64,000 nt of DNA from an uncultured Clostridia bacterium. GTDB taxonomy: Bacteria; Bacillota; Clostridia; Christensenellales; Borkfalkiaceae. The notes under the pieces were generated by a model. It was not told the DNA's origin. It saw only the letters and a list, made by a program, of their open reading frames with translations, and made no database searches. Location: NCBI GenBank assembly GCA_947627575.1, contig CANQWN010000005.1, forward strand, positions 62,001 through 126,000, written 5' to 3'. This document shows positions 11,262-49,872 of the stretch, in pieces; the stretch's first letter is position 1; each line of letters begins with the position of its first letter. The position numbers and the translations under genes were made by a program.

Positions 11262-11275
11262 GTGTACATTTCAAA

Positions 11276-12216: not shown

Positions 12217-12245
12217 TTGTGCGCCCGCGGGATTTGTGGTACAAT
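12217..12245 (+). promoter_or_regulatory. Promoter of the HAD phosphatase gene, predicted leaderless
   Basis: TTGTGC (12217-12222) and TACAAT (12240-12245) are separated by 17 bases. The ATG begins 6 bases after the -10 box, so transcription should start at or next to the start codon. No Shine-Dalgarno is present. Confidence 0.6.
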
Positions 12246-12251
12246 ATATCT

Positions 12252-32237: not shown

Positions 32238-32245
32238 TTTAAAAT

Positions 32246-33130
32246 ATGAGTTCATTGGTGGTAAACGAAGAGCTTCTTGAACAGATAGAACTGTTACAGA
32301 CCCTTCTTAAAAATTGCGTGGCGGGCGCGTTCGGCGGCAGTCATCAAAGCAAAACTTTCGGTTCCAGCTGCGATTTTGCCGATTACCGCGATTATATGGC
32401 GGGCGACGATATTACCAAAATCGATTGGAACGCTTTTGCGCGCTTTGAAAAATTATATCTTAAATTATATCTTGACGAGCGGCAAGTCCGCACGCGGATT
32501 TATATCGACGCAAGCCGTTCAATGGCTTACGGCAAAAGCAACAAGCATGTGCAGGCGATAAAGATAGCCGCCGCCATAGCTTATATTTCCGTGTGCGAAA
32601 TGGACAGAGTTTCGGTATACGCCGTCCACGGCGACCATACGGAAGAAATTATTTCCAATATGCTGGGCAAAGAGGATTTCTATAACAACATAAACAAGCT
32701 GAACGATATCCGGTTTGACGGCGAAAGCAACATTTCGGAGGCGATACTGCCCTCCGCGGTGGGCTACGGCGACGGACTTTCGGTTATAATTTCGGATTTT
32801 TTAACCGACAACGACCTTACGCCTGCTATCGATCATCTTGCAAGTAAAAAAAAGGATATACTTTGTATTCAGGTTCTTTCCAAATCCGAACTTTCACCCA
32901 AAGTGCGCGGTAAAATGCACTTTTACGACAGTGAAAACGCGGACCTTGTGTACAGGAAGAACATCAACAGGGAAATTATAAACGCCTACAAACGCGCGCT
33001 GGAATACGCCACGGGCAGCATAAGCGATTTATGCCATTCCCGCGGGGGCAGTTACGCGCTGGTTTCGGATACGGAAACTTTAAACGGAATATTTTTAGAC
33101 AAGTTGCTTACGGCGGGGGTATTTAAATGA
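32246..33130 (+). CDS. DUF58 (VWA-like) protein, MoxR partner
   Basis: A 294-residue cytoplasmic protein. The DUF58 signature region is DFADYRDYMAGDDITKIDWN (about residues 43-62). A VWA-type fold follows with the metal site DASRS (88-92). It starts 8 bases after the MoxR stop without a clear ribosome site, so translation may be coupled. The stop overlaps the next start by 4 bases. DUF58 proteins nearly always accompany MoxR ATPases and are thought to be the proteins they act on. Confidence 0.92.
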   Translation: MSSLVVNEELLEQIELLQTLLKNCVAGAFGGSHQSKTFGSSCDFADYRDYMAGDDITKIDWNAFARFEKLYLKLYLDERQVRTRIYIDASRSMAYGKSNKHVQAIKIAAAIAYISVCEMDRVSVYAVHGDHTEEIISNMLGKEDFYNNINKLNDIRFDGESNISEAILPSAVGYGDGLSVIISDFLTDNDLTPAIDHLASKKKDILCIQVLSKSELSPKVRGKMHFYDSENADLVYRKNINREIINAYKRALEYATGSISDLCHSRGGSYALVSDTETLNGIFLDKLLTAGVFK

Positions 33131-35025: not shown

Positions 35026-37780
35026 CGTCTATCTGTTGTTTATAGCGATACCGCTTGTAGTGCTGTTCGTAGTTCCGTTCGCGCTTGCGGTTCGCAAGGA
35101 TAACGCCAACGGGCACAACATAACCTCTTTGGTTTTGCACGTGCTTATGGCGGTGATAATCGCGTTTGCGGCGGCGGGCACCTCGATAAACACGGTGCTT
35201 ACCGAAACAAACGTGTTTGTTGTGGCGGACGTATCCTATTCCGCCGAAAAAAATCTGGATACGATAGATAGCTATATAAAAAATCTGGATCTTCCCCGCA
35301 ACTGCAAGTTGGGGTTGGTATGCTTCGGCAAAGACGCGCAGATAGTTTCCAACATGGGCGATCCCAAAAAGGTTAAAAGCGTAAAGCAAGCCACCGTGGA
35401 CGACAGCGAAACAAACATTGCCGAGGCTTTGGAATACACGGGCGAACTTTTCAAGGGCGACGCGATAAAGCGCATAGTGCTTATCACCGACGGCAAACAG
35501 ACCGATTCGCGCGACGATTACGCCATAACCCGCGCCGTGGACGGGCTGGAATCCAAAAAGATAAAGGTTGACGCCATATATCTTGACGACAATATTTCTT
35601 CCGACGCCCGCGAGGTGCAGATTTCCTCCGTGGAATACACAAAAAGCTCGTTTATAGGGCGCGAGGAAGTTGCCAACGTCAGCATAGACAGCACTTTCGC
35701 CACGCAGGCGATAGTTGAACTTAAAAGCGGAGACGAAATTTTAAGGCAGAGATCGGTTTCCGTACTCGAAGGTTCAAACAACGTAAGTTTCGACCTCGAT
35801 ACTTCCGTTGCGGGCGAATACGATTACGAGGTGACCATAAACGCCGAAGGGGACGAAAGCGACTACAACAACAGGTATCTCTTCACGCAGAAAGTTGTTT
35901 CCGAAATGCGAGTGCTTATTATTTCGGGCAGCTGGGGCGATACGGTAGACGCGATTGAAAAGTACGGCGAACAGGTTGAAATAGAGGCGTACGACCTCGA
36001 TACAAGCGGAGATTACAGCCGAAGCAGCAAGGTGGATTACGTAAACGCGCATGCGGATAACGAAAATCTCAATATCCACGTGTTAAGCACGCAGATACCT
36101 CTGGACCTCGAAACGCTTTCTTCGTACGATGAATATATAATTGCCGAGCTGGATATATCCAAAATATCGGGATATGAGGAATTTATAACAAATCTGCGTA
36201 CAAGCGTTCAGCTTTTCGGCAAAAGCCTGATAACGATAGGCAACCTGTATTTGCAGAACAGCGAGGACGAGGCGCTTATTCAGCTTGAGGATATGTTGCC
36301 CGTAAATTACGGCAACCGCGGCAACGACCCCAAACTGTACACGATAGTAATCGACTCGTCCCGCAGTATGGGCTGGTTATACCACCTCACCGTGGCAAAA
36401 CAGCTTGTGTTCAACCTGATGGATTTGCTTGACGAAAAGGACGAAATTTGTATAACAACGTTCTTCGGCGAAGTGCGAATGGTGCAGGCTCCCACGCCCG
36501 TAACCGCAGGCAACCGCCAAAGAATTATCGAACTTATAAACAATCTTTCCGTAACGCAGGGCACCATGATAGGCGCCGGGCTGGATATGGCGTACAAAGC
36601 CATCGAACCTTTAAATTACAGCGATAAGCAGGTTATGCTTATATCCGACGGACTTGAATACACCGACGAAAGCGACGACCCCGTCCGCATAGCAACCGAT
36701 ATGTACGAATCCGGCATAGTTACCTCCGTATTCGACGTAGGGCGTCAGGGCGACAGCTCTACGGGCGGCAATCAAAACGATACCGCTCTTGCGGCGAGGG
36801 ATTTGCTTAAAAACGTGGCAAGCGCGGGGCACGGCGAATACTACTATTCCAACAATGCCGAAAAGCTGGACGAAGTTACTTTCGGCAAGATAGCCGATAA
36901 GGCTTCCCTCACGGTGGTGGAAAAGACGGCTACGGTAACCGTAAACCGCCTTACCGACAGTGTGCTCGACGGCGTTGAAACGCTTAACTTCCCCGAAGTG
37001 GACGGCTATATGTACAGCGGCATAAAGTACAGCGCAACCAACGTGCTTACAATAAACCACAAAAAGGTTTCCGGAACTTCTTCCGTTCCGCTGTATGCGT
37101 ATTGGGATTTCGGCGAGGGCAAGGTTGCCACGTTCACCAGCAAAATCGGCGACGGTTGGCTTAAAAAATGGAAAGATTCGGGTATGGACGAACGGTTTTT
37201 CACCAACGTGTTCAATGAAAATATGCCCGACGAAAAGTTGGACGTTCCCTTCAACTACCGTATAGACAGAAACGGCACGGTAAGCACTCTCACCGTAACG
37301 CCGCCCAACTACCAGTTCGACGGGGTTGTTACGGTAAAGATAACCGACCCCGAGGGCGAAACTTACACCGAACGCCTTGTGCGCGACAGTAACTTCTTCT
37401 ATAGGGATATAGAAAGCAACCTCACGGGCAAGTATTCCCTTGAAATCACCTACGAATTTGCCGAAAAGACGTATGTCGTATCCACGTCGATGACAAATTC
37501 GTATGCGGAAGAATACAACGCGTTTTCGGCGTATTCCCCTTCGGAGCTGTACAAAGCGCTTAACGGCAGGGGCGAGGTAAGCCTCGACGGAAAACTTTCC
37601 GTGGAAAACGACGAAAGCGAAATAGCGATGTACAAACGGGAACTTGCGGTGCCTCTTCTCATAACGGTTGCGGCGCTGTACGTGATAGATATAATCATAC
37701 GTAAACTTAAATGGGAGGATATAAAAAGTTTCTTTGGTTTTGGCGGAAAATCCAAAAAGAAGGGGGATAAAAAATCGTGA
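35003..37780 (+). CDS. Membrane protein with two VWA domains
   Basis: A 925-residue protein starting within the preceding gene (23-base overlap). Helices at about 9-30 and 42-62 lead into a VWA domain with metal site DVSYS (76-80). A middle region resembles the glutamine-amidotransferase-like fold found in related VWA membrane proteins, but I cannot confirm it. A second VWA domain starts near residue 445 with DSSRS. A C-terminal helix near 875-890 is followed by a basic, Lys-rich tail. Two MIDAS-type sites in one chain suggest paired protein ligands. It is the largest member of the MoxR/VWA operon. Confidence 0.88.
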   Translation: MSSINFDNVYLLFIAIPLVVLFVVPFALAVRKDNANGHNITSLVLHVLMAVIIAFAAAGTSINTVLTETNVFVVADVSYSAEKNLDTIDSYIKNLDLPRNCKLGLVCFGKDAQIVSNMGDPKKVKSVKQATVDDSETNIAEALEYTGELFKGDAIKRIVLITDGKQTDSRDDYAITRAVDGLESKKIKVDAIYLDDNISSDAREVQISSVEYTKSSFIGREEVANVSIDSTFATQAIVELKSGDEILRQRSVSVLEGSNNVSFDLDTSVAGEYDYEVTINAEGDESDYNNRYLFTQKVVSEMRVLIISGSWGDTVDAIEKYGEQVEIEAYDLDTSGDYSRSSKVDYVNAHADNENLNIHVLSTQIPLDLETLSSYDEYIIAELDISKISGYEEFITNLRTSVQLFGKSLITIGNLYLQNSEDEALIQLEDMLPVNYGNRGNDPKLYTIVIDSSRSMGWLYHLTVAKQLVFNLMDLLDEKDEICITTFFGEVRMVQAPTPVTAGNRQRIIELINNLSVTQGTMIGAGLDMAYKAIEPLNYSDKQVMLISDGLEYTDESDDPVRIATDMYESGIVTSVFDVGRQGDSSTGGNQNDTALAARDLLKNVASAGHGEYYYSNNAEKLDEVTFGKIADKASLTVVEKTATVTVNRLTDSVLDGVETLNFPEVDGYMYSGIKYSATNVLTINHKKVSGTSSVPLYAYWDFGEGKVATFTSKIGDGWLKKWKDSGMDERFFTNVFNENMPDEKLDVPFNYRIDRNGTVSTLTVTPPNYQFDGVVTVKITDPEGETYTERLVRDSNFFYRDIESNLTGKYSLEITYEFAEKTYVVSTSMTNSYAEEYNAFSAYSPSELYKALNGRGEVSLDGKLSVENDESEIAMYKRELAVPLLITVAALYVIDIIIRKLKWEDIKSFFGFGGKSKKKGDKKS

Positions 37781-39180
37781 AAAAGTTATTTATAATAATT
37801 TTATCGCTTGTTATCGCTCTGTTCTGCGCCGGTTGTTCTTCCTATATCGCGCCCACCAATCCTACCGGCGGCGCCACGTCGGGTACTGAAGAACCGGACG
37901 ATCCGCAAAACCCCGATGATCCCTCGCAAGACGACGAAGGCGACGTATTCAGCGTAACGCTTATGTACGGCGGCAAGATATATGCGCCCAAGCGCGTACA
38001 GATGACCGCGCAATGGACGGGCGAGGACGGAAGCACTTACCGCGCCGAATTCAATGGCGGCGTGGCTTCCGTAACGGGGTTGGACGGCGTGTATTCCGTA
38101 ACCGTTTCCGGTCTGCCGGAAGATAAAGGATATAACCCTACGGCTTATACCACCGATAACAATCACCGCGACATTAACGTGGAAGTTATGGACGTTGTGG
38201 TGTTACATTCGGCGAAGCTGGAAGAAAGTACTTCGTTGCCCAGAAACGAAAATATCAGTATAAGCCAGGGAAATATTTACCGGATGATTGTATACGGCGA
38301 CGGGCAGGGCTGTTCGCTGCGCTTCGGCTCTTTGAACGGGCTTGAAACGTGGTGCGACACGGTTGCAAACGATTTGAACCCCAAAATCACGGGATATGTT
38401 TGCAATTCGGTATCCGGTTTCGTAAATTTAGGCACAGCCACGGTTGCCGCAGGCGGCGGAAAAAGTTCGTCTTTCACCAAAAATATCAAATGCGATTTCG
38501 GCGCCGACGCGGAATTTGACGGATTAACCCTTTGGCATCTGGTAGTGGAATCGCGCACGCATCAATTCCCCACGTATTTTGATTTCTGCCTGTTTGAATC
38601 AGCCGGACGTCCCGGCGGCGACGGCGGCGGGGAATCGCAGCAGCCCACTTATACCACAAAGCATGCAGATGCTTCGCTTTTGCAGTTGGTAAGCCCGCCC
38701 GGCAGTTTTGTATACAATTACCGCGATACAGATAATTTGTTGGACGCAAGCCGCTTCAAGCTGTTTGAAATAGGAACTACCGATTCCGACGGGAATGAGG
38801 GCGACGGCTACTATCACATTTACGATAGCGCAAACGACGTTTACGGCGCGATACTTTTCGCCGTAATATCGAAGGATTGCGAGATAATAGAATCCGAGGG
38901 CACCAACACGGGGTTCCTGTTTGAAAAAATCAGTCTGCAAGCGAACAACGTCAATTACGGACCTATGGTACGCGAATACGCCGAATATTGCAACGATATG
39001 GGCGCGCATCCCGTCACCGAGGAATTGAAAGAGTTTTTGCAGGCATATGCGACGAGAGAAAGATTTTTCGACGACGGCAACGGTTGGGCGGAAGGCGGCG
39101 GCTATTCCGGCTCGCCGAGGTTAAAATCCAACGAGGACAATCAGTGGTTGTTCGCGTGCGGATATTATGTAGTGGATTAA
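37777..39180 (+). CDS. Lipoprotein, last gene of the MoxR/VWA operon
   Basis: A 467-residue protein starting at GTG 37777, which overlaps the previous stop; GGGGGAT lies upstream. Lipobox is FCAGC with Cys20. A Pro/Asp-rich linker leads to a prealbumin-like domain (about 55-125), then beta-rich domains. The C-terminal 90 residues contain YAEYC...EELKEFL...W, which resembles a segment in the 2240-residue lipoprotein, so these surface proteins share building blocks. Position as the operon's last gene, with a terminator right after, suggests a secreted partner of the VWA machine. Confidence 0.85.
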   Translation: MKKLFIIILSLVIALFCAGCSSYIAPTNPTGGATSGTEEPDDPQNPDDPSQDDEGDVFSVTLMYGGKIYAPKRVQMTAQWTGEDGSTYRAEFNGGVASVTGLDGVYSVTVSGLPEDKGYNPTAYTTDNNHRDINVEVMDVVVLHSAKLEESTSLPRNENISISQGNIYRMIVYGDGQGCSLRFGSLNGLETWCDTVANDLNPKITGYVCNSVSGFVNLGTATVAAGGGKSSSFTKNIKCDFGADAEFDGLTLWHLVVESRTHQFPTYFDFCLFESAGRPGGDGGGESQQPTYTTKHADASLLQLVSPPGSFVYNYRDTDNLLDASRFKLFEIGTTDSDGNEGDGYYHIYDSANDVYGAILFAVISKDCEIIESEGTNTGFLFEKISLQANNVNYGPMVREYAEYCNDMGAHPVTEELKEFLQAYATRERFFDDGNGWAEGGGYSGSPRLKSNEDNQWLFACGYYVVD

Positions 39181-39863: not shown

Positions 39864-39931
39864 TATAACCGCGGATGTGATAGCAGGTTTGCCTGTATTT
39901 GTTGTGTCGCAAGCAAATAATAGAGATTATT

Positions 39932-42886
39932 ATGGCGAATAAAAAGACAAAAATTTTTTACTGCATATTGTGCTTATTATTGTTTTCTTTAATAGGCATT
40001 TTTTGTATTGGAATTTATAATCTGACGTACATTTCTGCAAGCGCATCTGCCCGGGAAGTTGAGGTCTTCAAAGACGACGCTCCGCAAAACCTTAAAGAAC
40101 TTCAAGGCGCAAGCGATGGGCAACTTGACCATTGGGCAAGTAATCTTGAAAGTTTTGATGGAAGAGAGTATGATTACATAACGCCCGTAAGAAATCAATA
40201 TAGCAAAAATACTTGTTGGGCGTTTGCGGCGGTTGGAGCGGCAGAGGCGAGTATTTTGCGTAACGGAATAGACGAAGATGTAACAAATCAAACTCTTGAC
40301 CTTGATGAAACGATAACTGCATACAATCGGCATGTCCGTGATGGAAGTCAGGATCCCTTATTATTAACTACAAATGATACATATAATTTCGGAACTTGGA
40401 ATCAGGGCGATTCCGGCGCGGCAACTGCATTTTCGGTTATGACGCAAGGATATACCCTTTTGAATGAAAACAATTTTAACACCGCCGAAGATGTAAATAA
40501 AATTAAAAGCGCACTTAAACAATCCAAATATTATGTCAAAAGTTATCAAAATATTTCAGATGATGTAAATTCAATCAAGCGTGCCGTTTTACAATACGGT
40601 GCGGTTACATTTAATTATGCCGCTCCATCCGATATAAAATTTTATAGCCCGTTTGCCGAGTCAAACCACACTTCAATCATTGTGGGGTGGGACGATACTG
40701 TGGCAAGTTCCGATTTCCATCCAAAGAAACCGGATAATGACGGTGCGTGGATAATCAAAAACAGTTGGGGGAAATATATGGGAGAGGAAGGTTACTTTTA
40801 TATTTCCTACAAGCAACCGATAGGCGGTTTGTATGCTATAGATATAGCAATGCAAAAGGATTATCAAAACATCTATCATTATGACGGAAATGTAACATTA
40901 AACATGGCCAAACGCGCAGGCGAAGCCCAGGCGGCAATTTATGAGGCAAAACTTTCAAGTCCCACAAAGCAAGAACAATTAAAAGCGGTTATGATATATG
41001 TGTCGGAAGGAAATTTAGACGTAAATGTTAAGATATATAAAAACTTAACGGTAAATCCCGGCAATGTTAATGACAAAATAAATATACCGGAACAAGATGA
41101 GCCCGCCTTGAATATGGATACAAAAATAATGCGAAACGGAATGCATACCATTGACCTGCCAACCCCTATAAATCTTGAACAGGGCGAATATTTTTCAATT
41201 GTAGTCAGGTGTAAGGGGAGTTCCGGCGCGTCGGTTTCGGTTAAATGCGCGGTTGACGGCAACAGTTCAATCAATGATATGACTTATTATCTTGAAAATG
41301 GACAATGGATTAGTTTTAAAAACAGCGATTTTTATGCCGATAGTTCAACTGTCAGTAAGACGGCTAAAATCAGAGCGATAACTAACACGGTGGAAAGAAC
41401 AACCGAAGCAGATAACCAATTAAAGTATGCCAGGGTGGAAATTGCAAACCGACTTGTCTATTATGTAAAAGGCGAGCAGTTAGTTCCGGAACCGAAAGTT
41501 TATTTGGACGGGGAATTGCTTGATAGCGAGCAGGATTACAGGGTAGAGATTGCAAATATTGCCGCACCCGGCATGACAGCAATAAGAATTGTCGGTACGG
41601 GGAACTATGAAGGTGAGAGAACAACTTATTTTGAAGTTGCAAAAGCCAAATATCCGCCAAACAGAACAACCGACGCTATTGTTGTTTACAATGATAAAAT
41701 TTCCTTACGCGATGTTCCGACGCCCACTGATTGGAAATGGGTTGAAGAGGACAAAAAACTTGAAAACGGAACTAATGCGGTTTCAATGATTTATGTTGGA
41801 GAAGATAAGGCTTTTTATCAAAACATAACTTGCAGCGTCAATGTTAATAAAATTAATGAAAATCCGATCCCGGATACTAATATTTCAACAGCAGTAGTGG
41901 AAATCATCGGTAATTGTGTTTACACGGGTGAGCAAATTATTCCAAGTGTTAAAGTCACATACGAAAACAGCGAATTGCGCTTAGGCGCAGACTATACTTT
42001 AACATTTCAGAACAATACAAATGCGGGAACCGCTACGGTAATTGTCAAAGGGAACGGACGTTATTTTGGTCAAGTAAGCCAAACATTTGTAATACAAAAG
42101 GCAGAGCATCCAAAGGAAATGCCAAACAGCACAATTAATGTCAGTTACAGAACTAAAAATTTGAATCAAATCTCTTTAAATTGCAATAATTGGGCATGGC
42201 AAACGCCAAATCTCGAATTAGAAAGCGATAATTTTCAAACTACAGCAATTTACATCGGGCAAGATGTAAACAACTATATCAACACGCAGATGCAAATTAC
42301 AATAATTAGAGAGCCGCAGTTGGAAATTTCATCGTTAACAGAGTTGGCGCTGGACGTAACTTCCTTTGTCTATGACGGATATGAAAAGGTGCCGAATGTA
42401 ATTGCAAAAGACGGAGCATATAGCCTTGTAAAAGGTGCCGACTATGAAGCGGAATATAAAAATAATACTTTTGCCGGTCAGGCAAGCGTTATTGTTAAAG
42501 GTAAAAATGCCTATACAGGCACAAAAGAACTTACCTTCATAATATACAAGGCAGAAAAGCCAAATGTTGATACAACAATACGCATAAATCAAAATATAAC
42601 TAAATTGTCTGACATACAACTTCCAAATGGATTTGTTTGGGAAAATGAAAATATCGAAATAGCGGATAATAAAATAACCGCAACAGCTATCTACAAGGGC
42701 GTCGACGCAAGCTGTTACGTAACAACTGAACTTACATTTGAAATTATCATTGAAGAACAACAAAATCTACCTCAAAAGTCAAAGCAAGGTAGCATGCTGG
42801 GGTTGGCGATAGGAATTCCGGTCTCAGTATTGCTGATTGCCGTAATTGTTGGATTTGCGGTAGCAAAACATAAGCGCAAAAAATAG
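39932..42886 (+). CDS. Surface-anchored papain-family (C1) cysteine protease
   Basis: A 984-residue protein. The ATG at 39932 is preferred over a TTG eleven codons upstream. An N-terminal hydrophobic segment (8-30) exports it. The C1 catalytic set is present: Gln89 and Cys95 in RNQYSKNTCWAFA, His near 247 in NHTSIIVGWDD, and Asn near 275 in WIIKNSWGK. Three or more beta repeats follow with the pattern YTGEQIIPSVKV...GADYTLTFQNNTNAG...IVKGNG. A C-terminal helix with KHKRKK at the end anchors it in the membrane. Base composition is visibly AT-richer than flanking genes and codon choice differs (AAT, AAA, ATT frequent), suggesting transfer. Role may be breakdown of peptides or host proteins at the surface. 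Confidence 0.9.
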   Translation: MANKKTKIFYCILCLLLFSLIGIFCIGIYNLTYISASASAREVEVFKDDAPQNLKELQGASDGQLDHWASNLESFDGREYDYITPVRNQYSKNTCWAFAAVGAAEASILRNGIDEDVTNQTLDLDETITAYNRHVRDGSQDPLLLTTNDTYNFGTWNQGDSGAATAFSVMTQGYTLLNENNFNTAEDVNKIKSALKQSKYYVKSYQNISDDVNSIKRAVLQYGAVTFNYAAPSDIKFYSPFAESNHTSIIVGWDDTVASSDFHPKKPDNDGAWIIKNSWGKYMGEEGYFYISYKQPIGGLYAIDIAMQKDYQNIYHYDGNVTLNMAKRAGEAQAAIYEAKLSSPTKQEQLKAVMIYVSEGNLDVNVKIYKNLTVNPGNVNDKINIPEQDEPALNMDTKIMRNGMHTIDLPTPINLEQGEYFSIVVRCKGSSGASVSVKCAVDGNSSINDMTYYLENGQWISFKNSDFYADSSTVSKTAKIRAITNTVERTTEADNQLKYARVEIANRLVYYVKGEQLVPEPKVYLDGELLDSEQDYRVEIANIAAPGMTAIRIVGTGNYEGERTTYFEVAKAKYPPNRTTDAIVVYNDKISLRDVPTPTDWKWVEEDKKLENGTNAVSMIYVGEDKAFYQNITCSVNVNKINENPIPDTNISTAVVEIIGNCVYTGEQIIPSVKVTYENSELRLGADYTLTFQNNTNAGTATVIVKGNGRYFGQVSQTFVIQKAEHPKEMPNSTINVSYRTKNLNQISLNCNNWAWQTPNLELESDNFQTTAIYIGQDVNNYINTQMQITIIREPQLEISSLTELALDVTSFVYDGYEKVPNVIAKDGAYSLVKGADYEAEYKNNTFAGQASVIVKGKNAYTGTKELTFIIYKAEKPNVDTTIRINQNITKLSDIQLPNGFVWENENIEIADNKITATAIYKGVDASCYVTTELTFEIIIEEQQNLPQKSKQGSMLGLAIGIPVSVLLIAVIVGFAVAKHKRKK

Positions 42887-42969: not shown

Positions 42970-43060
42970 GCCGTTTCCCATAAATGGGAGCCCTCGGCAG
43001 GGCGTCGGCGGCAAAGCCGCCTCGCGCGAACGAGGGGTTCGAGAGTGGCTGAAAATTTAC
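42970..43060. other. Structured non-coding segment beside the integration site
   Basis: CTGCCG and CGGCAG enclose an inner CCCAT/ATGGG hairpin. A GGCGGC/GCCGCC hairpin and a CTCG/CGAG hairpin follow. A GGGTTCGA heptamer recalls a tRNA T-loop, but no cloverleaf can be drawn. Function unknown. Confidence 0.4.
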
Positions 43061-44556
43061 CAAAAAAAGAAGCGCATATATGCGCTTCTTTTTTTTGGTG
43101 CACCTACGCATTTTATATCCGAACTTTTTGCGCTTTCCAACTCGGAAAGCGTTATTGTTTCCGTTCCGTCCTTGTAATTGTATGTAAAAGTTATCCTATC
43201 GTCATACACATAGATCGCATTGATAAAACCGTCTATCAATCGCTGTTTTCCTTCTTGTGTGGTTAAATCTAACTTTTTGTACTTTTCTATTCCGAATAAA
43301 ATCTGTTCTTTCGTAAGAAACGGCTTTTTTATCTTTTCCTGCAAGATTGTGATTTCTATTTCTTTTTTCTTTGCTTCCAACTGCGAAAGTCTGTCTTTCG
43401 TACTGTCTGTTATAATTCCTTGTTCGATTGCGGAAAGCATATTTTCGATACGTTTTTCTATATCTGCCTTTTGCTCGTTCAAACGAGGCAATCTCGGATT
43501 TTCTTCGCCTTGTAAAGCGTATAATTTATCCACAAGCAGATTGACCAATTCCGCATTTTCCAAAACGCCGAGAGCCTTTTGGATTGCGATTTCTTCCATC
43601 CATTCTTTGCGAACGGCTTTTTTATCACACAGTTTTCCTTTCTTTGCCCGTGCGCATTTATAATAGCGGTATGTTCTCGACGTTCCCGTGCCGCTCTCTC
43701 CAAACATATGCGCTCCGCATTTACCGCAAAACAATTTCAAAGTCAGAATATAGTCGTCCTCAGCCTTATGGCGTGCAGGCGCTTTTTTATTTTTGGCAAG
43801 GCGTTTTTGAACGCGCTCAAATAAATCGTCGTCTATAAGTGCAGGAATGCCGTGTTCGATGATTGTATCACGGAATTTGTACTCACCGATGTATCTGCGG
43901 TTTGACAGCATACGCTGAACAATGTTGATCGTCATTTTGCCGCCGCGGATCGTCAATATATTTTTCTCGTTCAGATAGTCTGTGATTTGCTTTATCGTCT
44001 TTCCGTCGGCATATCGTGTAAAAATTTCTTTTACGATCGGTGCGGTCGTAGGGTTGGGGTGGAAATACATTTCTTCATCGATTTCATAGCCGAATGTTAC
44101 CTGCCCGCCGTTGTTTTTTCCCTTTAAGACGTTTTCTGTCATTCCGCGCACAACTTTTTCGGCAAGTTCCGCCGAATAGTATTCTGCCATTCCTTCCAAA
44201 ACCGATTCAAGCAAGATTCCTTCCGAACCGTTTGCTATTGTTTCCTTTGCGGATATAACCTTTACGCCGTTCTTTTTGAGCAGCGTTTTATAATGTGCGC
44301 TGTCATAGCGGTTGCGGGCAAAACGGTCTAATTTCCAGACGATAATGCAATCGAAGGCGTGTTTATAGCTGTCTTTGATCATTCGCTGAAATTCGGGGCG
44401 GTTATCCGTCTTTGCGGAAAGCGCACGGTCTATATAATTGCCGATAACGTCTATGCCCGTATGTTCCGCAAATTCCATACATTCGCGGAGCTGCCCTTCG
44501 ATAGAGGCTTCCGTTTGATTGTCCGAAGAATATCGGGCGTAAATAACAGCTTTCAT
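43057..44556 (-). CDS. Large serine recombinase (integrase) of the mobilizable element
   Basis: A 499-residue recombinase. The resolvase-type catalytic domain starts MKAVIYARYSSDNQTE with the nucleophile Ser10 and has DRFAR later. A recombinase domain, a zinc ribbon (CGKCG near 280 and two further Cys) and a coiled-coil (about 370-420) follow, as in large serine integrases. GGGAGA lies upstream of the ATG. The last 16 or so codons, after VGAPK, are not the element's own: they read through the 13-bp attachment core (43093-43105) and the hairpin terminator of the former tRNA operon. In the circular element the C-terminus would differ. It is the first gene at the left end of the element. Confidence 0.93.
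   Translation of the reverse strand: MKAVIYARYSSDNQTEASIEGQLRECMEFAEHTGIDVIGNYIDRALSAKTDNRPEFQRMIKDSYKHAFDCIIVWKLDRFARNRYDSAHYKTLLKKNGVKVISAKETIANGSEGILLESVLEGMAEYYSAELAEKVVRGMTENVLKGKNNGGQVTFGYEIDEEMYFHPNPTTAPIVKEIFTRYADGKTIKQITDYLNEKNILTIRGGKMTINIVQRMLSNRRYIGEYKFRDTIIEHGIPALIDDDLFERVQKRLAKNKKAPARHKAEDDYILTLKLFCGKCGAHMFGESGTGTSRTYRYYKCARAKKGKLCDKKAVRKEWMEEIAIQKALGVLENAELVNLLVDKLYALQGEENPRLPRLNEQKADIEKRIENMLSAIEQGIITDSTKDRLSQLEAKKKEIEITILQEKIKKPFLTKEQILFGIEKYKKLDLTTQEGKQRLIDGFINAIYVYDDRITFTYNYKDGTETITLSELESAKSSDIKCVGAPKKRSAYMRFFFW
43062..43096. terminator. Displaced terminator of the tRNA operon
   Basis: A perfect dyad with core GAAGCGCATATATGCGCTTC lies between A7 and T8 tracts. On the minus strand it follows the attachment core directly. 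Before insertion it would have stood just after the CCA end of the tRNA-Lys gene now at 49797. Confidence 0.8.
43093..43105 (+). repeat. Left attachment core of the integrated element
   Basis: TTTTGGTGCACCT, identical and in direct orientation to 49794-49806, where it is the 3' end of tRNA-Lys. Its centre GGTGCACC is palindromic. Confidence 0.85.
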
Positions 44557-44597
44557 CGTTTATCTCCCTTTTTTTCTTTGTGTGCATTATACCATAG

Positions 44598-44603
44598 AAA
44601 ACT
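44598..44603 (-). promoter_or_regulatory. Extended -10 promoter of the recombinase gene (approximate position)
   Basis: On the minus strand TGGTATAAT lies about 35 bases upstream of the recombinase ATG. The -35 region is weak, so the TGN extension probably matters. The XRE gene lies just upstream and may regulate it. Confidence 0.45.
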
Positions 44604-44628
44604 TGACAGATATAGTCATATATAGAAA

Positions 44629-44988
44629 TTATTTCTGATTTTCTTGCAATAATTTCAAAATAGACTCTTTTAGCTTTGCATTAGCAGGAGATTTCGGATC
44701 AAAACACATTTCGATAAATTCTTTCATCTTTTTGTCATCCAAGGTTTTAGGGTTATAGTCATACAAAATTCCTTGCGGCTTATCAGTGCGCCCGAAAATA
44801 TAATCGAGAGAAACATCAAAATAATCGGCGTACCACAATAAAATAGCATTCGGAACATCGCTTTGACCACTTTCATAACGAAAAATTGCTGGCTGTGCTA
44901 CTGTTCCAATCTCTTTTGCAATAAATGATTGTGACTTTCCGATGCTCTCGCGCAATGTCTTTAATCTGTTTCCAATTGTATTATTCAT
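44629..44988 (-). CDS. XRE-family transcriptional regulator
   Basis: A 119-residue protein. Residues about 5-62 form a Cro/CI-type helix-turn-helix: IGNRLKTLRES, KSQSFIAKEIG, and FRYESGQSDVPNAILLWYAD, ending in the usual FDVSLDYIFGRTDKP. The C-terminal 45 residues are helical and charged. It lies between the recombinase gene (same strand) and the divergent Lsa-type gene, so it may control excision, element genes, or itself. Target sites were not identified. Confidence 0.9.
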   Translation of the reverse strand: MNNTIGNRLKTLRESIGKSQSFIAKEIGTVAQPAIFRYESGQSDVPNAILLWYADYFDVSLDYIFGRTDKPQGILYDYNPKTLDDKKMKEFIEMCFDPKSPANAKLKESILKLLQENQK

Positions 44989-45080
44989 TATTGATATCCT
45001 CGAGTATTTATTATATACTTTTTCTAAATTAAAATCAATACGAAAATAGAATTATTTTCTAAAACTTCTCTAATAAATGC

Positions 45081-45109
45081 TTGATTAAATTGAAATGTTA
45101 TGGTATACT
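45081..45109 (+). promoter_or_regulatory. Promoter of the Lsa-type gene leader
   Basis: TTGATT (45081-45086) and TATACT (45104-45109), spacing 17. The predicted leader RNA is about 220 bases long. Confidence 0.7.
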
Positions 45110-45139
45110 GTGGCATAGAAAATGTTTGAGGTGAACGGA

Positions 45140-45160
45140 GTGATTAAATTTTCTTGCTAA
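45140..45160 (+). CDS. Possible six-codon leader peptide of the attenuator
   Basis: GTG ATT AAA TTT TCT TGC TAA, preceded by GAGGTGA at a good distance. An in-frame GTG at 45131 is an alternative start. A short peptide in this place is typical of inducible ABC-F genes, where a drug-stalled ribosome changes the leader fold. The peptide itself is only inferred from position and ribosome site. Confidence 0.45.
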   Translation: MIKFSC

Positions 45161-45275
45161 ATCATTATATTGCAAATTTCGAAAGTAGTTATGCTTTTGT
45201 GGTTTGCGTTATTGCAAGAAAGTGAAATCTGTCTATATCTCAAATATAAGTATAAAATTATTTTGAGCATTTACC

Positions 45276-45312
45276 GAACTATGAGAGATTACTTTCTCAT
45301 AGTTCTTTTTTA
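45276..45312 (+). terminator. Attenuator terminator in the leader of the Lsa-type gene
   Basis: GAACTATGAGA (45276-45286) pairs exactly with TCTCATAGTTC (45295-45305) and is followed by TTTTTTA. It stands 23 bases before the ATG, inside the transcription unit, so it should stop transcription unless an alternative fold forms. Confidence 0.85.
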
Positions 45313-45334
45313 CTTTTAAGGAGGTTTTTTATCC

Positions 45335-46813
45335 ATGTCAGTCATAAAAATTGAAAATCTTACTTTTGCCTACCCATCGAGCTTCGATAATATATTTGAA
45401 GATGTCAGTTTTCAGATAGATACGAATTGGAAACTCGGTTTTATTGGCAGAAATGGCAGAGGAAAAACAACTTTTTTGAATATCTTGCAAGGTAAATATG
45501 AATATCAAGGAAAAATAACATCTTCCGTTCAATTTGATTATTTTCCATACAGTGTACCAGATAGAAGCAAATTAACAAATTCTATTTTACAGGGAATTTG
45601 TCCTATAGCCGAAGAATGGCAAATTATGCGTGAATTATCCTATTTGGAAGTGGATGAAAATTGTTTATACAGACCATTTGATACTTTATCAAATGGAGAA
45701 CAGACAAAGGTTTTACTTGCAGCACTGTTCTTGAATGAAGGGCATTTCTTGCTTATAGACGAGCCTACCAATCATTTGGATATGCGAGCAAGAGAATTAG
45801 TTTCAGCATATTTGCGTAAGAAAAAAAGTTTTATATTAGTATCCCACGACAGATGTTTTTTGGATGGTTGTATCGACCATGTGCTTTCCATCAATCGTTC
45901 CAATATTGAAGTTCAAAGCGGAAACTATTCTTCTTATATGGAAAATTTTGAACGTCAGCAAGATTTTGAACGCAGACAAAACAGTCGATTACAAAGCGAT
46001 ATTCAACGGCTGCAAGAAACGACAAAACGCACCGCAAATTGGGCAAATAAGGTAGAAAAAACAAAAAATGGCATTTTAGATTCCGGATTAAAACCAGATA
46101 AGGGATATATAGGACATAAGTCAGCCAAGATGATGAAAAGAGCGAAGGTTGTAGAAGCAAGGCAGCAAAAAGAAATTGAGCAAAAATCAACATTGCTCAA
46201 AAATGTTGAAATTGAAAGCGGTCTCAAAATCTCACCATTGACATACCGTTCTGAACGGTTAATTTCTCTCTCTGACGTTGTACCGTTTTATGGCAATAAC
46301 AAGGTATGTAAGCCTGTAACATTTGATATTATGCGCGGAGATAGAATTGCCCTTGAAGGTAAAAACGGTTGCGGTAAAAGCAGTATATTAAAATTGTTGT
46401 ACGGACATTCAATAGATTATTTGGGGATAATAGAAAGAGGTTCAAATCTTACTATTTCTTACGTTCCGCAAGACACATCACACTTACGGGGTACACTTTC
46501 CGATTTTGCGTTTTCGGAGCATATAGATGAAAGTTTGTTTAAGGCCATTCTTCATAAAATGGGGTTTCAAAGACAACAATTTGAAAAAGATATAACAAAC
46601 TTTTCGGAAGGACAGAAAAAAAAGGCTTTGATCGCTAAAAGTCTTTGCCAACAAGCACACCTATATATTTGGGATGAACCTTTGAACTTTATAGATATTT
46701 ATTCGCGTATTCAAATTGAAAATTTGCTCATGCAGTTTCGGCCCACAATGATTTTTGTCGAACATGATAAAACATTTCAGAATAAAATTGCAACACGTAT
46801 AATCAAATTTTAG
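45335..46813 (+). CDS. lsa: Lsa-type ABC-F ribosomal protection protein (LSA-P resistance)
   Basis: A 492-residue cytoplasmic protein with two ABC ATPase domains and no membrane segments, the ABC-F layout. Domain 1 has Walker A GRNGRGKT (38-45), signature LSNGEQ and LIDEPTNHLD. A charged linker (about 200-285) is the antibiotic-resistance arm that reaches the ribosome P-site. Domain 2 has Walker A GKNGCGKS, signature FSEGQKKK and WDEPLNFID. The N-terminus NLTFAYPSSFDNIFEDVSFQ and the C-terminal half strongly resemble Lsa proteins as I remember them, which protect against lincosamides, streptogramin A and pleuromutilins. AAGGAGG precedes the ATG, and an attenuator precedes that. The subtype cannot be fixed by eye. 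Confidence 0.88.
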   Translation: MSVIKIENLTFAYPSSFDNIFEDVSFQIDTNWKLGFIGRNGRGKTTFLNILQGKYEYQGKITSSVQFDYFPYSVPDRSKLTNSILQGICPIAEEWQIMRELSYLEVDENCLYRPFDTLSNGEQTKVLLAALFLNEGHFLLIDEPTNHLDMRARELVSAYLRKKKSFILVSHDRCFLDGCIDHVLSINRSNIEVQSGNYSSYMENFERQQDFERRQNSRLQSDIQRLQETTKRTANWANKVEKTKNGILDSGLKPDKGYIGHKSAKMMKRAKVVEARQQKEIEQKSTLLKNVEIESGLKISPLTYRSERLISLSDVVPFYGNNKVCKPVTFDIMRGDRIALEGKNGCGKSSILKLLYGHSIDYLGIIERGSNLTISYVPQDTSHLRGTLSDFAFSEHIDESLFKAILHKMGFQRQQFEKDITNFSEGQKKKALIAKSLCQQAHLYIWDEPLNFIDIYSRIQIENLLMQFRPTMIFVEHDKTFQNKIATRIIKF

Positions 46814-46873
46814 CATCGAAATACGAACAAATGTTTGTATTTTATTGACAAACGGAAATAGATATGATATAAT

Positions 46874-46912
46874 AAAAGAGTACAGGTGTAGATGTCGCCT
46901 GTACTCTTTTGC
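46874..46912 (+). terminator. Terminator of the Lsa-type gene
   Basis: A 13-bp stem AAAAGAGTACAGG (46874-46886) with CCTGTACTCTTTT (46898-46910). Confidence 0.85.
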
Positions 46913-47638
46913 CATACTTTGAAATGTGTATGGCGTAGTTCTCCTCTTACAGAGGGGGAGCAGAATTTTCTGCGCAGTAGAGCGGGATTTGCCCGCGAGG
47001 TTTTCAGCGCGTATTGCGCTGCACCCGAGCCGTCTGAAAGACGAGCCGTTATGGGCTTTGTAAGCGTACAAATTTTTGAACGTGTAAAGCCCTTGTATGG
47101 TTGTTGTTTTTCGTCAGGCAATGAGGGGCTTTTTTGTGATACAATTTTTCCGAAAAAGCCGACGTTCTCTTTGCTTGAAAAAGATGTGCGATGAAAGGCT
47201 TTTTTAAGTGTACTCTTTTTATGGAGTTGAGCCTGTTTTATCTCGCATTTTTGGACGCGCGATTATGGGTTTTATTTGCGTACAATTTTAGATGTCGGGG
47301 CGCGAAAGCGTATTCAACAGTCGGCATCACAATAGAATGGCTAACCACCATAGAGCAATACGAAGTTGCTAAATACGGTTAAGGTCGGTGATATGCGAAA
47401 AGCTGTCAGCGACTTTTTTGCACACTTTTTTAGTTATCGTAGCCCTCTCCTTTCGGCGTGGGTAAAGATAAAAACAAATCAGATAAGGAGGAAGATATGA
47501 ACAAACAAAGAACGATCAGACCGCCATAAAACGGCAAGCAAACAACAAAAAACGGAAAGCAAAACAGACGAAGACAGCCTGTTCCGTAGTGTGTTACACA
47601 AGCGGAGCAGACTGCCGCTTTTCGTAATGGCGAGGTAC
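46913..47638. other. Gene-poor segment of the element
   Basis: About 725 bases with no convincing gene. It holds several small hairpins (for example GCCATAC/GTATGGC near 46912-46935) and two related phrases TTATGGGyTTT...GCGTACAA near 47049 and 47265. A strong GGAGGA site leads only into a ten-codon frame (47497-47529, beginning MNKQRTIRPP), which may be a broken gene start. It may be decayed element DNA. Confidence 0.4.
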
Positions 47639-47699
47639 GCAAGTGGCAAGCCACTTGCCGAGCGTTCCGCTCGCCTCGTTAGGGGAAATACTTTCCCCT
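47639..47699. other. Candidate oriT: three consecutive hairpins upstream of mobC
   Basis: GCAAGTGGC-AA-GCCACTTGC (47639-47658) is followed by GAGCG-TTC-CGCTC and AGGGGAAA...TTTCCCCT (47681-47699). Inverted repeats directly upstream of mobC and relaxase genes are the usual form of oriT. The nick site is not recognised. Confidence 0.5.
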
Positions 47700-47710
47700 A
47701 ATACCCTTTT

Positions 47711-48070
47711 ATGGAAGTACAAAAAACTTTGGAGGAAAAAATTATCGAGAAGAAAACAGTAAAACGAAACAGACCAATAACCTATTCTTTCCGCGTATCG
47801 GAACGGGAACGGCGCATCATTGATGAGAAGGTAAAGACAAGCGGATTGAGCCGAACAGACTTTCTGATCCGCGCATTGACGGACAAGCCCGTTGTTGTAT
47901 TCGAACGCAGCGGAGAGATATTGCAGGAACTTAAACGGCAAGGCAATAACTTAAATCAAGCGGTTCGGCGTTGTCACTTCCACCCGAATGAGAAAGAACA
48001 AGTATTGTCTGCCGCGGCAGAGTGCAAGAGAGCGTATCGCGCTTTGCTCTCCATTATCGGAGGGAACTGA
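47711..48070 (+). CDS. mobC: MobC-like relaxosome accessory protein
   Basis: A 119-residue basic protein. The first 45 residues are a ribbon-helix-helix-like region (ITYSFRVSERERRIIDEKV). The bacterial mobilisation signature LKRQGNNLNQAVRR lies at about 77-90. MobC proteins bind near oriT and help the relaxase open the DNA. The start lacks a visible ribosome site. The relaxase start follows the stop within two bases, so the genes are an operon. Confidence 0.88.
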   Translation: MEVQKTLEEKIIEKKTVKRNRPITYSFRVSERERRIIDEKVKTSGLSRTDFLIRALTDKPVVVFERSGEILQELKRQGNNLNQAVRRCHFHPNEKEQVLSAAAECKRAYRALLSIIGGN

Positions 48071-48071
48071 A

Positions 48072-49121
48072 ATGCCGCTTTTGAAAGGTACGGCGGGCAA
48101 AGCCATGCCTGATATGGCTATCGGCTATATTACCCGCAAGGATAAGGCAAAGTATATCGACGTGCAAAACCTTTTCATAGACGAGGATTATTCAGCGCAG
48201 TTCAAAGAAACGGCGGCGAGGTTCGGAAAATATACAGACTACGACGAGAGAAAGTATTATCATTTCAAACTTTCTCCCGACAGGAAAGATAGAGCTGATC
48301 CTCGCATGGTACATGAGTATGCGAGAGCTTGCGCGGAAAAGATGTTCAAGGGTTGCGAGTGCGTCATAGCCACGCATACGGATACGCAGACCGTTCACAG
48401 TCATATCGTGGTCAATGCCGTCCACCCTATTACGGGAAAGAAACTGCATTTTAACGACAGTGATTATACGAGGCTGAAAGATATGGCGAATGAGATCGGA
48501 GAAGAGTTCGGATTTTCCTCTTTGGATTTTCGGAAGAAAGCCGAGAACAACCGAACACAGGACGAGCAGCATATCATTCTCAAAGGCGGTACATCGTGGA
48601 AGGAAGATTTAAGAGAGGTCATTGAGGAAGGAAAACTTTTGGCAAGCGACGAGAGCGAATTTTTCGCTCATCTCGCAAAGTACGGGGTAAGCGTTACGAG
48701 AAGCAAGACGGAATACTCCTACCTGCACCCCGAAAAGAAAAAAGCTATCCGAGGGCTGAAACTCGGACAAAATTATACGAAAAGTGAGGTATTAAATGTC
48801 ATTGAAAAATATGGAAACAGGACAAACTGCAACACCGCTTGCGATGTTGCAGGAAATGAACGAACAGGACAGGCAGCATATCAAAACCGATTTACTCAAA
48901 GAAGCGTTGGCGATATCGAACGAGAAATGCAACAAATTGATCGAGACGCAGAACAAGCTCATCGAGGAAATGCGGGCGGATATGGCGGCGACGGAATACG
49001 ATCTGACAACAACCGTGGACAAAGCGGTACGGGAAATCAAAACGGAAACCGCGAAAACAGAGAAACTCAACGAGAGCATCGGAATACAAGTCAAAAAGGC
49101 GGTTTCGACTTCTGTAAATGA
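48072..49121 (+). CDS. MOBP-type relaxase
   Basis: A 349-residue protein. ATG 48072 follows GGAGGG. The relaxase domain shows a Tyr in GYITR (Tyr19, candidate nicking residue), HFKLSPD, and the metal triad around His102, His109 and His111 in HTDTQTVHSHIVVNAV. Residues after about 245 are Gln/Asn/Arg/Gly-rich and low in complexity. The protein is short compared with many MobA relaxases because the tail is brief. Its last 326 bases also encode a separate protein in another frame. It would nick oriT and pilot the strand into a helper conjugation system. Confidence 0.9.
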   Translation: MPLLKGTAGKAMPDMAIGYITRKDKAKYIDVQNLFIDEDYSAQFKETAARFGKYTDYDERKYYHFKLSPDRKDRADPRMVHEYARACAEKMFKGCECVIATHTDTQTVHSHIVVNAVHPITGKKLHFNDSDYTRLKDMANEIGEEFGFSSLDFRKKAENNRTQDEQHIILKGGTSWKEDLREVIEEGKLLASDESEFFAHLAKYGVSVTRSKTEYSYLHPEKKKAIRGLKLGQNYTKSEVLNVIEKYGNRTNCNTACDVAGNERTGQAAYQNRFTQRSVGDIEREMQQIDRDAEQAHRGNAGGYGGDGIRSDNNRGQSGTGNQNGNRENRETQREHRNTSQKGGFDFCK

Positions 49122-49317
49122 TATGAAAGCGGAAATGCTGCTAAATGTGCGGGAAACATTATTCAAAACGCAGGAAGAAATCCGAAAGACCGAAAAAGAA
49201 ATGGAACAGTTACGGGAGAATATCCGTTTCGAGAGCGGGTTTCGCAAATTCCTGCTGTGGCTTACACCTGCATTGCTTGTCGTGCAGACGATCGTACTTG
49301 CAATTTCATTGCTTTGA
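48796..49317 (+). CDS. Coiled-coil membrane protein nested in the relaxase gene (MobB-like)
   Basis: A 173-residue protein starting inside the relaxase gene in another frame, with GTGAGG upstream of its ATG. Residues about 25-145 are charged and helical with heptad spacing; a membrane helix LLWLTPALLVVQTIVLAISLL ends the protein. The 326-base overlap recalls RSF1010, where mobB lies inside mobA and encodes a membrane protein that helps transfer; that likeness is structural, not from a sequence match. Both frames look coding: the relaxase frame has a typical polar tail, and this one an orderly coiled coil. Confidence 0.8.
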   Translation: MSLKNMETGQTATPLAMLQEMNEQDRQHIKTDLLKEALAISNEKCNKLIETQNKLIEEMRADMAATEYDLTTTVDKAVREIKTETAKTEKLNESIGIQVKKAVSTSVNDMKAEMLLNVRETLFKTQEEIRKTEKEMEQLRENIRFESGFRKFLLWLTPALLVVQTIVLAISLL

Positions 49318-49364
49318 CCACAACTGAATAATCGCTGAAAAGGAGAAAATGCTATCGGGAAAAA

Positions 49365-49553
49365 ATGTCGAGAAAGAAAAAGAACACCACAGGCATACCA
49401 GATTATGAAATTGACTCGCTCGCAAGAGCATTGCTGCCCGCCATTCAATCACTCTTTGAAACGGAAGAAGGAAAAAGAGAGTTTGAAGAATGGAAGGCAG
49501 AAAGACAAAAACGACAACTGAATACAAAATTGAATAAGAAAGAGTCCTGTTGA
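49365..49553 (+). CDS. Small element-borne protein of unknown function
   Basis: A 62-residue charged protein: MSRKKKNTTGIPDYEIDSLA, then a helix ALLPAIQSLFETEEGKREFEEW. I recall similar small proteins downstream of relaxase genes in Firmicute conjugative and mobilizable elements. GGAGAAAA upstream is 17 bases from this ATG and closer to another ATG (49348) that opens only a 19-codon frame, so translation initiation is uncertain. Confidence 0.65.
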   Translation: MSRKKKNTTGIPDYEIDSLARALLPAIQSLFETEEGKREFEEWKAERQKRQLNTKLNKKESC

Positions 49554-49682
49554 ATACATAAGGACAGACCGCATAGACGGTATTTGAAAAGATCCGCAAT
49601 AAAGAGGCGGATTCTGAAAAAATAAGATAATATGTGAATTTCAGAAAGGTTGAGCCGAATATCATAAACCTTGAACAACGGC

Positions 49683-49715
49683 AAAAGGGCTTGCGGATAT
49701 CCCGCAAGCCCTTTT
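49683..49715. terminator. Bidirectional terminator at the right end of the element
   Basis: A 14-bp stem AAAAGGGCTTGCGG (49683-49696) with CCGCAAGCCCTTTT (49702-49715). It can end the mob operon and, from the other side, the tRNA operon whose own terminator was displaced. Confidence 0.9.
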
Positions 49716-49793
49716 ACTTTATTGTAAATCCGAAAATAAAAAAGTAAATCCGAACCAATCACCCGTGATGAGTAAAAAGTTCGGATTATACCC

Positions 49794-49806
49794 TTTTGGT
49801 GCACCT
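49794..49806 (+). repeat. Right attachment core, overlapping the tRNA-Lys 3' end
   Basis: TTTTGGTGCACCT, an exact direct repeat of 43093-43105. It covers the CCA end and the last acceptor bases of the minus-strand tRNA-Lys gene. Confidence 0.85.
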
Positions 49807-49872
49807 TCAGGGACTCGAACCCTGGGCCCACTGATTAAGAGTCAGTTGCTCTACCAACTGAGCTAAAGGTGC
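49797..49872 (-). tRNA. tRNA-Lys (CUU)
   Basis: A 76-nt cloverleaf. Acceptor GCACCTT pairs with AAGGTGC, the anticodon loop is CTCTTAA, and CCA is encoded. It is last in the operon and is the insertion target of the mobilizable element, which restores its 3' end. Confidence 0.97.

Follow-up and report, generated by a model that had tools for sequence, protein, structure and literature searches.

A stretch of 64,000 nucleotides from an uncultured Clostridia bacterium of the Borkfalkiaceae (contig CANQWN010000005.1, positions 62,001 to 126,000; hereafter the window) contains a 6.7-kb mobilizable element that occupies the 3' end of a tRNA-Lys(CUU) gene via a serine-type integrase. We consider it probable that this is an integrative and mobilizable element (IME) moved by a large serine recombinase of a family that uses tRNA 3' ends generally, reads the T-loop of its target and carries the attachment site of the element (attP) within the integrase gene itself. 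Its boundaries, the attP geometry, the block shared by both ends, the reading frame, a conserved tail and, in the delimited elements, a constant polarity of the attachment (att) sites can be read by comparing sequences. Its interest lies in the way it targets tRNA genes generically and splits its own integrase gene. A sequence-only reading of the window had already proposed a serine-integrase mobilizable element in the tRNA-Lys 3' end with a readable attP, and repeats, arms, tRNA and Pfam domains bear this out; it overlooked both the location of attP within the integrase gene and the presence of the tRNA T-loop at the place where a half-site of the host attachment site (attB) is expected. The features on which the argument rests are the following, P and P' denoting the arms of attP and ORF an open reading frame.

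43101..49801, no strand: integrated mobilizable element of about 6.7 kb, bounded at the presumed overlap, with 6701 bases between the two CCA ends and boundaries that agree with 35 other elements
43106..44556, minus strand: large serine recombinase up to the att core (Pfam Resolvase, Recombinase, Zn_ribbon_recom)
43057-44556, minus strand: integrase ORF, which continues into host DNA and has its stop codon there
43117..43123, minus strand: P arm TTCGGAT, within the integrase coding frame, with 21 bases between the arm and the end of CCA
43096..43104, minus strand: tRNA-3'-end copy GGTGCACCA on the integrase side, from the repeat and arm comparison of both ends
43062..43095, minus strand: hairpin terminator past the integrase-side repeat (terminator scan; fold -19.3 kcal/mol, z -7.0)
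49719..49796, minus strand: final 25 codons and stop of the integrase, detached from the gene, in frame with the P-side CCA codon and conserved in viral relatives
49738..49797, minus strand: hairpin of the P' arm and its inverted copy, on the tRNA strand (-26.6 kcal/mol, z -6.7)
49780..49786, minus strand: P' arm ATCCGAA, beginning 10 bases past CCA
49797..49872, minus strand: tRNA-Lys(CUU), the target gene (tRNA prediction)
49801..49802, minus strand: probable overlap dinucleotide GC (tRNA bases 71/72), from the shared-block analysis
49813..49820, minus strand: T-loop GTTCGAGT, put forward as an attB half-site and situated 5 bp closer to the crossover than the arm is in attP (rule in PMC3783163)

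In the window itself the repeat TTTTGGTGCACCT has exactly two plus-strand copies, at 43093 and 49794. Each of the two arms, AAAAAGTTCGGAT (49774-49786) and ATCCGAACTTTTT (43117-43129), is present as a single copy, and they are spaced 11 and 12 bases from GGTGCACC, so that the repeats, arms and spacings given earlier are all exact. An inverted match of at least 13 bases between the two 50-base ends was obtained in 1 of 3000 shuffles, and 3000 pairs of positions drawn at random from the window likewise gave 1. By our own estimate, a 13-base direct repeat within 64 kb is weak evidence when taken alone. The integrase unites the Resolvase N-terminal domain (PF00239), the Recombinase domain (PF07508) and a zinc ribbon (PF13408) in a single protein, all above cut-offs, and its target is the last gene in a minus-strand run of six tRNAs.

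Including that of the window, 36 elements were delimited at both ends; they are related and hence do not represent independent events. Two later complete elements (L234, L235) stand outside this count, and one in a tRNA-Arg (L009) was excluded for having no P' arm. Among the 36, L205 has no integrase match, L202 has a broken integrase and L068 lacks CCA on the integrase side. The target type was assigned by ARAGORN in 16 cases (tRNA-Lys, Leu, Pro, Ala and Glu), and the remaining targets were recognised as tRNA ends by their T-loop, spacing and CCA. The P' arm stands 10 bases past CCA in all 36, in a search that permitted 9 to 11. In two elements GCTTGAA replaces ATCCGAA, and both of these have TTCAACT as P arm. 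L205 (144-4232) is in itself a curious case, a 4.1-kb island with both att ends that holds, by eye, a LysR-type gene and metabolic-looking genes, and that was possibly moved in trans.

As evidenced by the alignment of both ends, counted back from the end of CCA, the integrase-side and tRNA-side letters are equal in 36/36 elements at -5 and -4 and in 35/36 at -6 (shuffle mean 18.8, maximum 26 in 2000). At -7 agreement is found in 10/36 against 8.5 expected by chance, and directly past CCA it is at chance level again. The block common to both ends across the 36 elements is the last six tRNA bases only, and its letter at -6 (G, C, T or A) varies in step with the target tRNA. The boundaries in the window agree with those of the 35 other elements, no displacement being seen in these homologous copies. 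Of the earlier proposal that 13-bp repeats bound the element, the two copies stand, but the extent of the shared block was overstated. Since the ends of the relatives share beyond chance only these six bases, the outer TTTT and T of the repeat are probably incidental. Nor does the palindromic core GGTGCACC, once singled out as a notable feature of the site, survive as a family trait: these bases belong to the acceptor end of tRNA-Lys and change from one target tRNA to another.

The shared block from -6 to -4 is compatible with a matching 2-bp overlap, with L069 mismatched at -6, and the two arms are centred on tRNA base 71; from this comparison the best fit for the overlap dinucleotide is probably tRNA bases 71/72. 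In L068, CCA is absent on the integrase side and present on the tRNA side, and L361 is alike on its integrase side. Because CCA is found only on the tRNA side, the pattern in L068 suggests a host gene without CCA to which the element has supplied one, and the exchange would therefore be 5' of CCA.

A circular form of such an element should carry both arms around one intact core. The pattern TTCGGAT-N18-CCA-N10-ATCCGAA, taken from the two ends in the window, was searched as continuous DNA in viral contigs and is intact in at least 80 viral contig stretches. A homologous integrase (26-49% identical) is present in 72 of the 80 listed stretches; in 69 of these the integrase match runs up to the pattern and shares its strand, and in 3 it lies on the other strand. 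Among the eight listed stretches without integrase, four have the pattern near an end of the available DNA and four (two identical pairs) look like chance matches. The element of the window is known in integrated form, and the joined-end site predicted for it thus has its counterpart, with the same geometry and intact, in related phages. Faecalibacterium phage Pioen keeps the N18-CCA-N10 geometry with the arms TTCGTTT and AAACGAA, and FP_Taranis has the same integrase end followed by different, hairpin-like DNA. The joined pattern also occurs in 1 of 391 genomes, at the end of a 58% identical integrase (L346/L359); as the contig has no terminal overlap, this intact attP (G008:C63) was rejected as proof of a circle.

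The association holds for integrases chosen without regard to their sites. A scan of genome contigs yielded at least 570 integrase relatives among at least 593 candidate stretches, of which the best 80 were kept, and these 80 homologous loci were picked by protein alone. In 74 of them the gene ends with arm-N18-CCA in the integrase frame, the arm being TTCGGAT in 66, TTCAACT in 4, TTCGGGT in 3 and TTCGTCT in 1; the six loci without this end are L008 (contig end), L061, L068, L075, L077 and L083. Within 60 bases past CCA a hairpin of -9 kcal/mol or below follows in 71 of 73 testable loci, one of the 74 having too little sequence beyond. As shuffles reach the same energy in a mean of 39.4/73, it is the excess that counts and not the mere presence of a hairpin.

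In a class sample of 391 genomes, 20 carry the integrase at an E value of 1e-150 or below. The junction of T-loop and P' arm is found in 69 of them, the window's own genome included, with 100 matches against 6 for a reversed control pattern. We fetched 79 of the 100, those left out being mostly contig edges and places that are not tRNA-like, and 65 of the 79 have the spacing of the window under a pattern that allowed seven spacings. The idea that all such junctions are full elements was discarded, as most have no integrase match. One example is a solo right end in the genome of the window (L141, C1:240280-256300), where the tRNA and P'-arm hairpin are followed by ORFs that by eye resemble sporulation and housekeeping genes, with no integrase match. 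The same genome has a second serine integrase, 43% identical, with TTCGAAT-N18-CCA and hairpin-like sequence beyond (L002, C5:40234-44598), and a third, 41% identical, facing an incomplete-looking tRNA 3' part (L003, C6:69002-73360). A circular 25.7-kb record labelled plasmid (L380, OY725851.1) shows a homologous integrase end with arm, CCA and hairpin-like sequence, as in integrated copies.

How one integrase design might serve so many targets is suggested by the position of the T-loop. For the LI integrase the motif bound by the zinc domain was shown to be displaced in attB by 5 bp towards the centre, relative to attP (PMC3783163; this and the other articles cited are drawn on in excerpt). 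When the arm GTTCGGAT was compared at successive positions with the 234 tRNA genes of the fetched loci, the best position was -24, at the T-loop GTTCRANY, with 5.88 of 8 letters matched against 3.72 at the next position. The arm starts at -29 in attP, and the shift is exactly 5 bp. Because it equals the known displacement between attP and attB, the integrase probably reads the T-loop as an attB half-site, and binding of the T-loop is the probable mode of recognition on these grounds. As the T-loop and its distance from CCA are common to tRNA genes, many targets would be open to the same design. An arm-like motif in the terminator half of attB was also considered and rejected, none exceeding the shuffle maximum at any offset tested.

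Taken together, the following course of events can be proposed. In the circular form the integrase would bind the P and P' arms, and in the host it would bind the T-loop GTTCRANY, which would serve as an attB half-site and is 5 bp closer to the crossover than the arm is in attP. Strands would be exchanged among the final bases of the acceptor end, with tRNA bases 71/72 as the most likely place. The P' side would join the tRNA, restore its last bases and bring a replacement hairpin terminator, and the P side would join the old terminator, which would then follow the integrase gene. Integration would swap the last approximately 25 conserved integrase codons for host-derived ones, and excision would restore them. 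With respect to the terminators, the hairpin at 43062..43095 reads as the displaced terminator of the tRNA operon, congeners having hairpin-like sequence directly past the CCA of tRNA-Lys, and that at 49738..49797 is probably the replacement; we infer that the two are exchanged on integration.

That attP lies within the integrase frame was read from the DNA, from the in-frame CCA and the conserved detached tail. As a consequence, integration detaches some 25 conserved codons and host codons replace them. In the window more than 5 kb of element separate the detached codons from the rest of the gene, and the last codons and stop of the integrated gene are host-derived. Where the frame is open, at 53 distinct viral sites, the integrase continues through CCA into the tail, which stops at 16 or 24-26 codons in 41 of them; equal stops are seen in 234 of 1378 pairs, where shuffles give 108. 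For 130 pairs with equal stop and 45-85% identity, compared in the region beyond the arm, the BLOSUM62 score per residue is 2.98 in the integrase frame versus 1.25 and 1.29 in the others, and the differences at codon positions 1/2/3 number 568/344/834. In each of the 36 right ends the integrase frame stays open for 20 codons or more, versus 25% of shuffles, with FG in the tail of 36/36 and NPN in 34/36. The family profile matches the A118 integrase over the C-terminal domain and ends at position 461 of 506, for which reason we regard the tail segment as an addition relative to that protein. In a structural model of a complete viral integrase (L299) the tail contains a beta hairpin (strands 499-502 and 505-513), after a poorly predicted linker. 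The swap of tails may alter the activity of the integrase.

Sites without the element were sought in 18 congeners, 11 of which have a readable tRNA-Lys(CUU) 3' flank, classified by eye. In 7 of the 11 (L237, L241, L242, L243, L247, L248, L259) there is no arm, and CCA is followed by hairpin-like sequence; these are tRNA-Lys sites without the element, and one genome (G395) has homologues of the window genes 31041-39177 at 4194-12287 and its tRNA-Lys at about 15350, 3 kb beyond, near these neighbour genes. Additional pieces of tRNA-Lys are present in some of the 7, which may therefore harbour other elements; in congeners 3' fragments of 23-50 bases are found elsewhere. L240 shows a P' end of the integrase family at a contig edge, and L238, L239 and L246 have arms resembling those of other subfamilies. 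The 11 congeners gave no clear case of the segment 49683-49793 kept beside tRNA-Lys in the absence of the element, an arrangement that would have spoken against these boundaries; solo right ends occur elsewhere.

The orientation of the inserts, a question that the sequence-only reading was right to raise, deserves separate attention. The tRNA 71/72 dinucleotide is GC or CG, and thus self-complementary, in 21/36 elements including that of the window, and att polarity is identical in 36/36. No integrase end facing a reversed tRNA was seen in 80 loci, four of which have fewer than 100 bases beyond. In distant relatives the integrase gene can adjoin the tRNA and face it (L362, L367, L369, L372, L373, L364, L125, L129-L132, L135, L154-L156 and L003 are examples), and in a tree of 125 integrases (68 normal, 34 viral, 12 unlabelled, 11 convergent) this convergence requires at least 5 changes, the unlabelled members being counted as not convergent. 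These convergent integrases were not accepted as reversed inserts: L156 keeps its P arm on the far side, so that here the gene was flipped and att polarity kept. The far end of the other convergent elements was not found in a search of ten loci, L156 being the sole readable one. True att reversal may be present in L362, L367, L369, L372 and L373, where the tRNA-adjacent arm has, by eye, a P-arm-like spacing that is one base longer. L156 also shows two elements in tandem at one tRNA gene, and L364 two convergent integrase genes at one site.

Several observations weigh against the account given above. The 36 delimited elements are mutually related and were partly found through the arm pattern, and 69 of the 79 fetched junctions have no integrase match above cut-off within at most 16 kb, many being cut by contig ends. 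With no arm-like motif on the terminator side, attB would be read mostly through one half, and L069, which differs at -6 but not at -5 or -4, leaves the overlap not settled. As to the tail, frame +1 is nearly as open as the integrase frame (median 23.5 versus 25), part of the conservation is the arm itself, and the beta hairpin of the L299 model is predicted at low confidence, with block means of the predicted local distance difference test (pLDDT) of 45-60. Because frame +1 is nearly as open, conservation outweighs openness as evidence for the tail. The in-frame tail could be a by-product, the P' arm and terminator hairpin being conserved as DNA and the peptide having no role, and the openness of frame +1 would suit this, as would the coincidence of the NPN and FG codons with the arm and its inverted copy. 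Past the arm, however, what is conserved in the viral tails is the protein encoded in the integrase frame, third-position differences being in excess, their stops cluster as described, and the segment is added beyond the A118 match, so that we find this explanation improbable. It is harder still to maintain that another recombinase, namely a tyrosine integrase, or homologous recombination placed the element. Although tRNA 3' ends are the classic target of tyrosine integrases, and the short tRNA-Lys 3' fragments of the congeners may in our own reading stem from such elements, the serine recombinase is the sole recombinase recognised among seven element ORFs scanned, the relatives share a block of only six bases, and intact attP adjoins a homologous integrase in viral contigs; we give this alternative next to no weight.

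The constant polarity can be explained by purging of reversed inserts, by an overlap at tRNA bases 72/73 or by asymmetry of the sites, and what fixes it is something that we infer. An overlap at 72/73 would be CA in tRNA-Lys and not self-complementary; the dinucleotide would then fix orientation in the ordinary way and the palindrome would be irrelevant. L069, matching at -5 and -4, and the identical polarity in all 36 elements are in its favour, but the -6 letter matches in 35/36, tracks the target tRNA and is followed by a sharp drop to chance at -7, the arms centre on base 71, and the integrase end of L061 has C at -4 versus A in its sisters, which suits 71/72 (seen at the integrase end only). 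We judge a 72/73 overlap rather unlikely. Whether instead the enzyme itself makes both orientations at GC overlaps and reversed insertions are purged is, to us, an evenly balanced question. According to Rutherford et al. (PMC3783163), who cite Ghosh et al. 2003 for the statement on alignment, sites synapse equally in both alignments of the central dinucleotide and exchange is efficient only when they are parallel, and a reversed insert would presumably leave the tRNA without terminator and encoded CCA, its end altered. Against this stand two hosts that seemingly had tRNA genes without encoded CCA (integrase ends L068 and L361), for which reason loss of CCA alone need not be fatal, and the lack of any reversed insert in 80 loci, although that count cannot separate purging from a preference of the enzyme. 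The more ambitious version of our own account, in which a widespread T-loop-reading integrase family enters many tRNA genes, polarity is set by site asymmetry and not by the overlap, and attP within the gene acts as a state switch by clipping a C-terminal beta hairpin at each integration that excision restores, is put forward tentatively.

The remaining features of the element, none of them part of the recombination site, are these.

44629..44988, minus strand: HTH_3 (helix-turn-helix) regulator (Pfam/NCBIfam)
45335..46813, plus strand: Lsa-family ABC-F protein, the cargo (NCBIfam NF000167, 756.1 bits versus a cut-off of 750)
47711..48070, plus strand: NikA/MobC-like mobilization protein (Pfam PF21983, PF05713)
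48072..49121, plus strand: MobA/VirD2-like relaxase (Pfam PF03432; a MobP-type NCBIfam match is below cut-off)
48796..49317, plus strand: ORF in another frame over the relaxase (no Pfam match; one weak NCBIfam match far below cut-off)
49365..49553, plus strand: small ORF of 62 codons near the right end (no Pfam family)
49683..49715, plus strand: second terminator-like hairpin, at the right end (terminator scan)

The combination of serine recombinase, HTH regulator, Lsa-family ABC-F protein, NikA/MobC-like protein and relaxase gives the element its IME-like build, to which its own integrase and precise ends also belong. No mating-pore proteins were recognised among the seven element ORFs scanned with Pfam, whereas the relaxase and the NikA-like protein are present. 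The relaxase ORF and that at 48796-49317 overlap by more than 300 bases in different frames (48072-49317). A terminator-like hairpin at 45276-45305 stands immediately upstream of the Lsa-family ABC-F gene (45276-45335 in the window) and resembles the leader attenuators of such genes. Adjoining the integrase end of the element, at 39899-42886, the window encodes a large protein that looks secreted and combines a papain-family peptidase with a lectin-like domain.

Among known systems the A118/LI-type large serine recombinases (4KIS) are similar in domain order, in the profile match over the C-terminal domain and in having the zinc-domain motif 5 bp further inward in attB than it is in attP (PMC3783163). 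The family described here differs in targeting the T-loop and acceptor end of many tRNA genes, in having attP within the integrase gene and in the extra C-terminal segment. Phage phiRSM1 (tRNA-Ser) and eight Mycobacterium actinomycete integrative and conjugative elements (AICEs; tRNA-Leu) likewise combine a serine recombinase with a tRNA target, but, going by their description in the excerpts of PMC3218068, use one tRNA gene each. The same source calls the use of tRNA genes by serine recombinases rare, in line with the earlier remark that it is uncommon; within this integrase family, however, it is the rule. Streptococcal serine-integrase IMEs are also small elements with integrase and relaxase, yet the sites named in the available part of PMC5357655 are rumA, traG, maff2, snf2 and intergenic, with tRNA sites left to tyrosine integrases. 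In mycobacteriophage BPs attP lies within a gene too, and integration shortens the product by 33 residues (PMC4557955), but that gene is a repressor underlying integration-dependent immunity, and in the present family the gene is that of the integrase. The Faecalibacterium phages FP_Taranis and Pioen have homologous integrases and are phages rather than mobilizable elements; the accessible text of the FP_Taranis paper reports att repeats only for tyrosine-integrase prophages (PMC5883640). Titles and opening lines of the literature that our search reached, which did not extend to the large published surveys of serine recombinases, describe no T-loop-reading serine integrase and no attP within a serine integrase gene.

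Serine integrases are prized tools, and their choice of site is hard to predict. In the present family the att sites are legible by comparison alone, both intact and recombined, and the target is carried by nearly every tRNA gene. Att sites are thereby supplied for phages and elements such as FP_Taranis-type prophages, where, according to the excerpted account in PMC5883640, none could be found. What becomes testable is the recognition of an entire family of targets via one conserved half-site, the cause of orientation at a self-complementary overlap, and the role that an integrase gene split by its own attP may play as a switch of direction.

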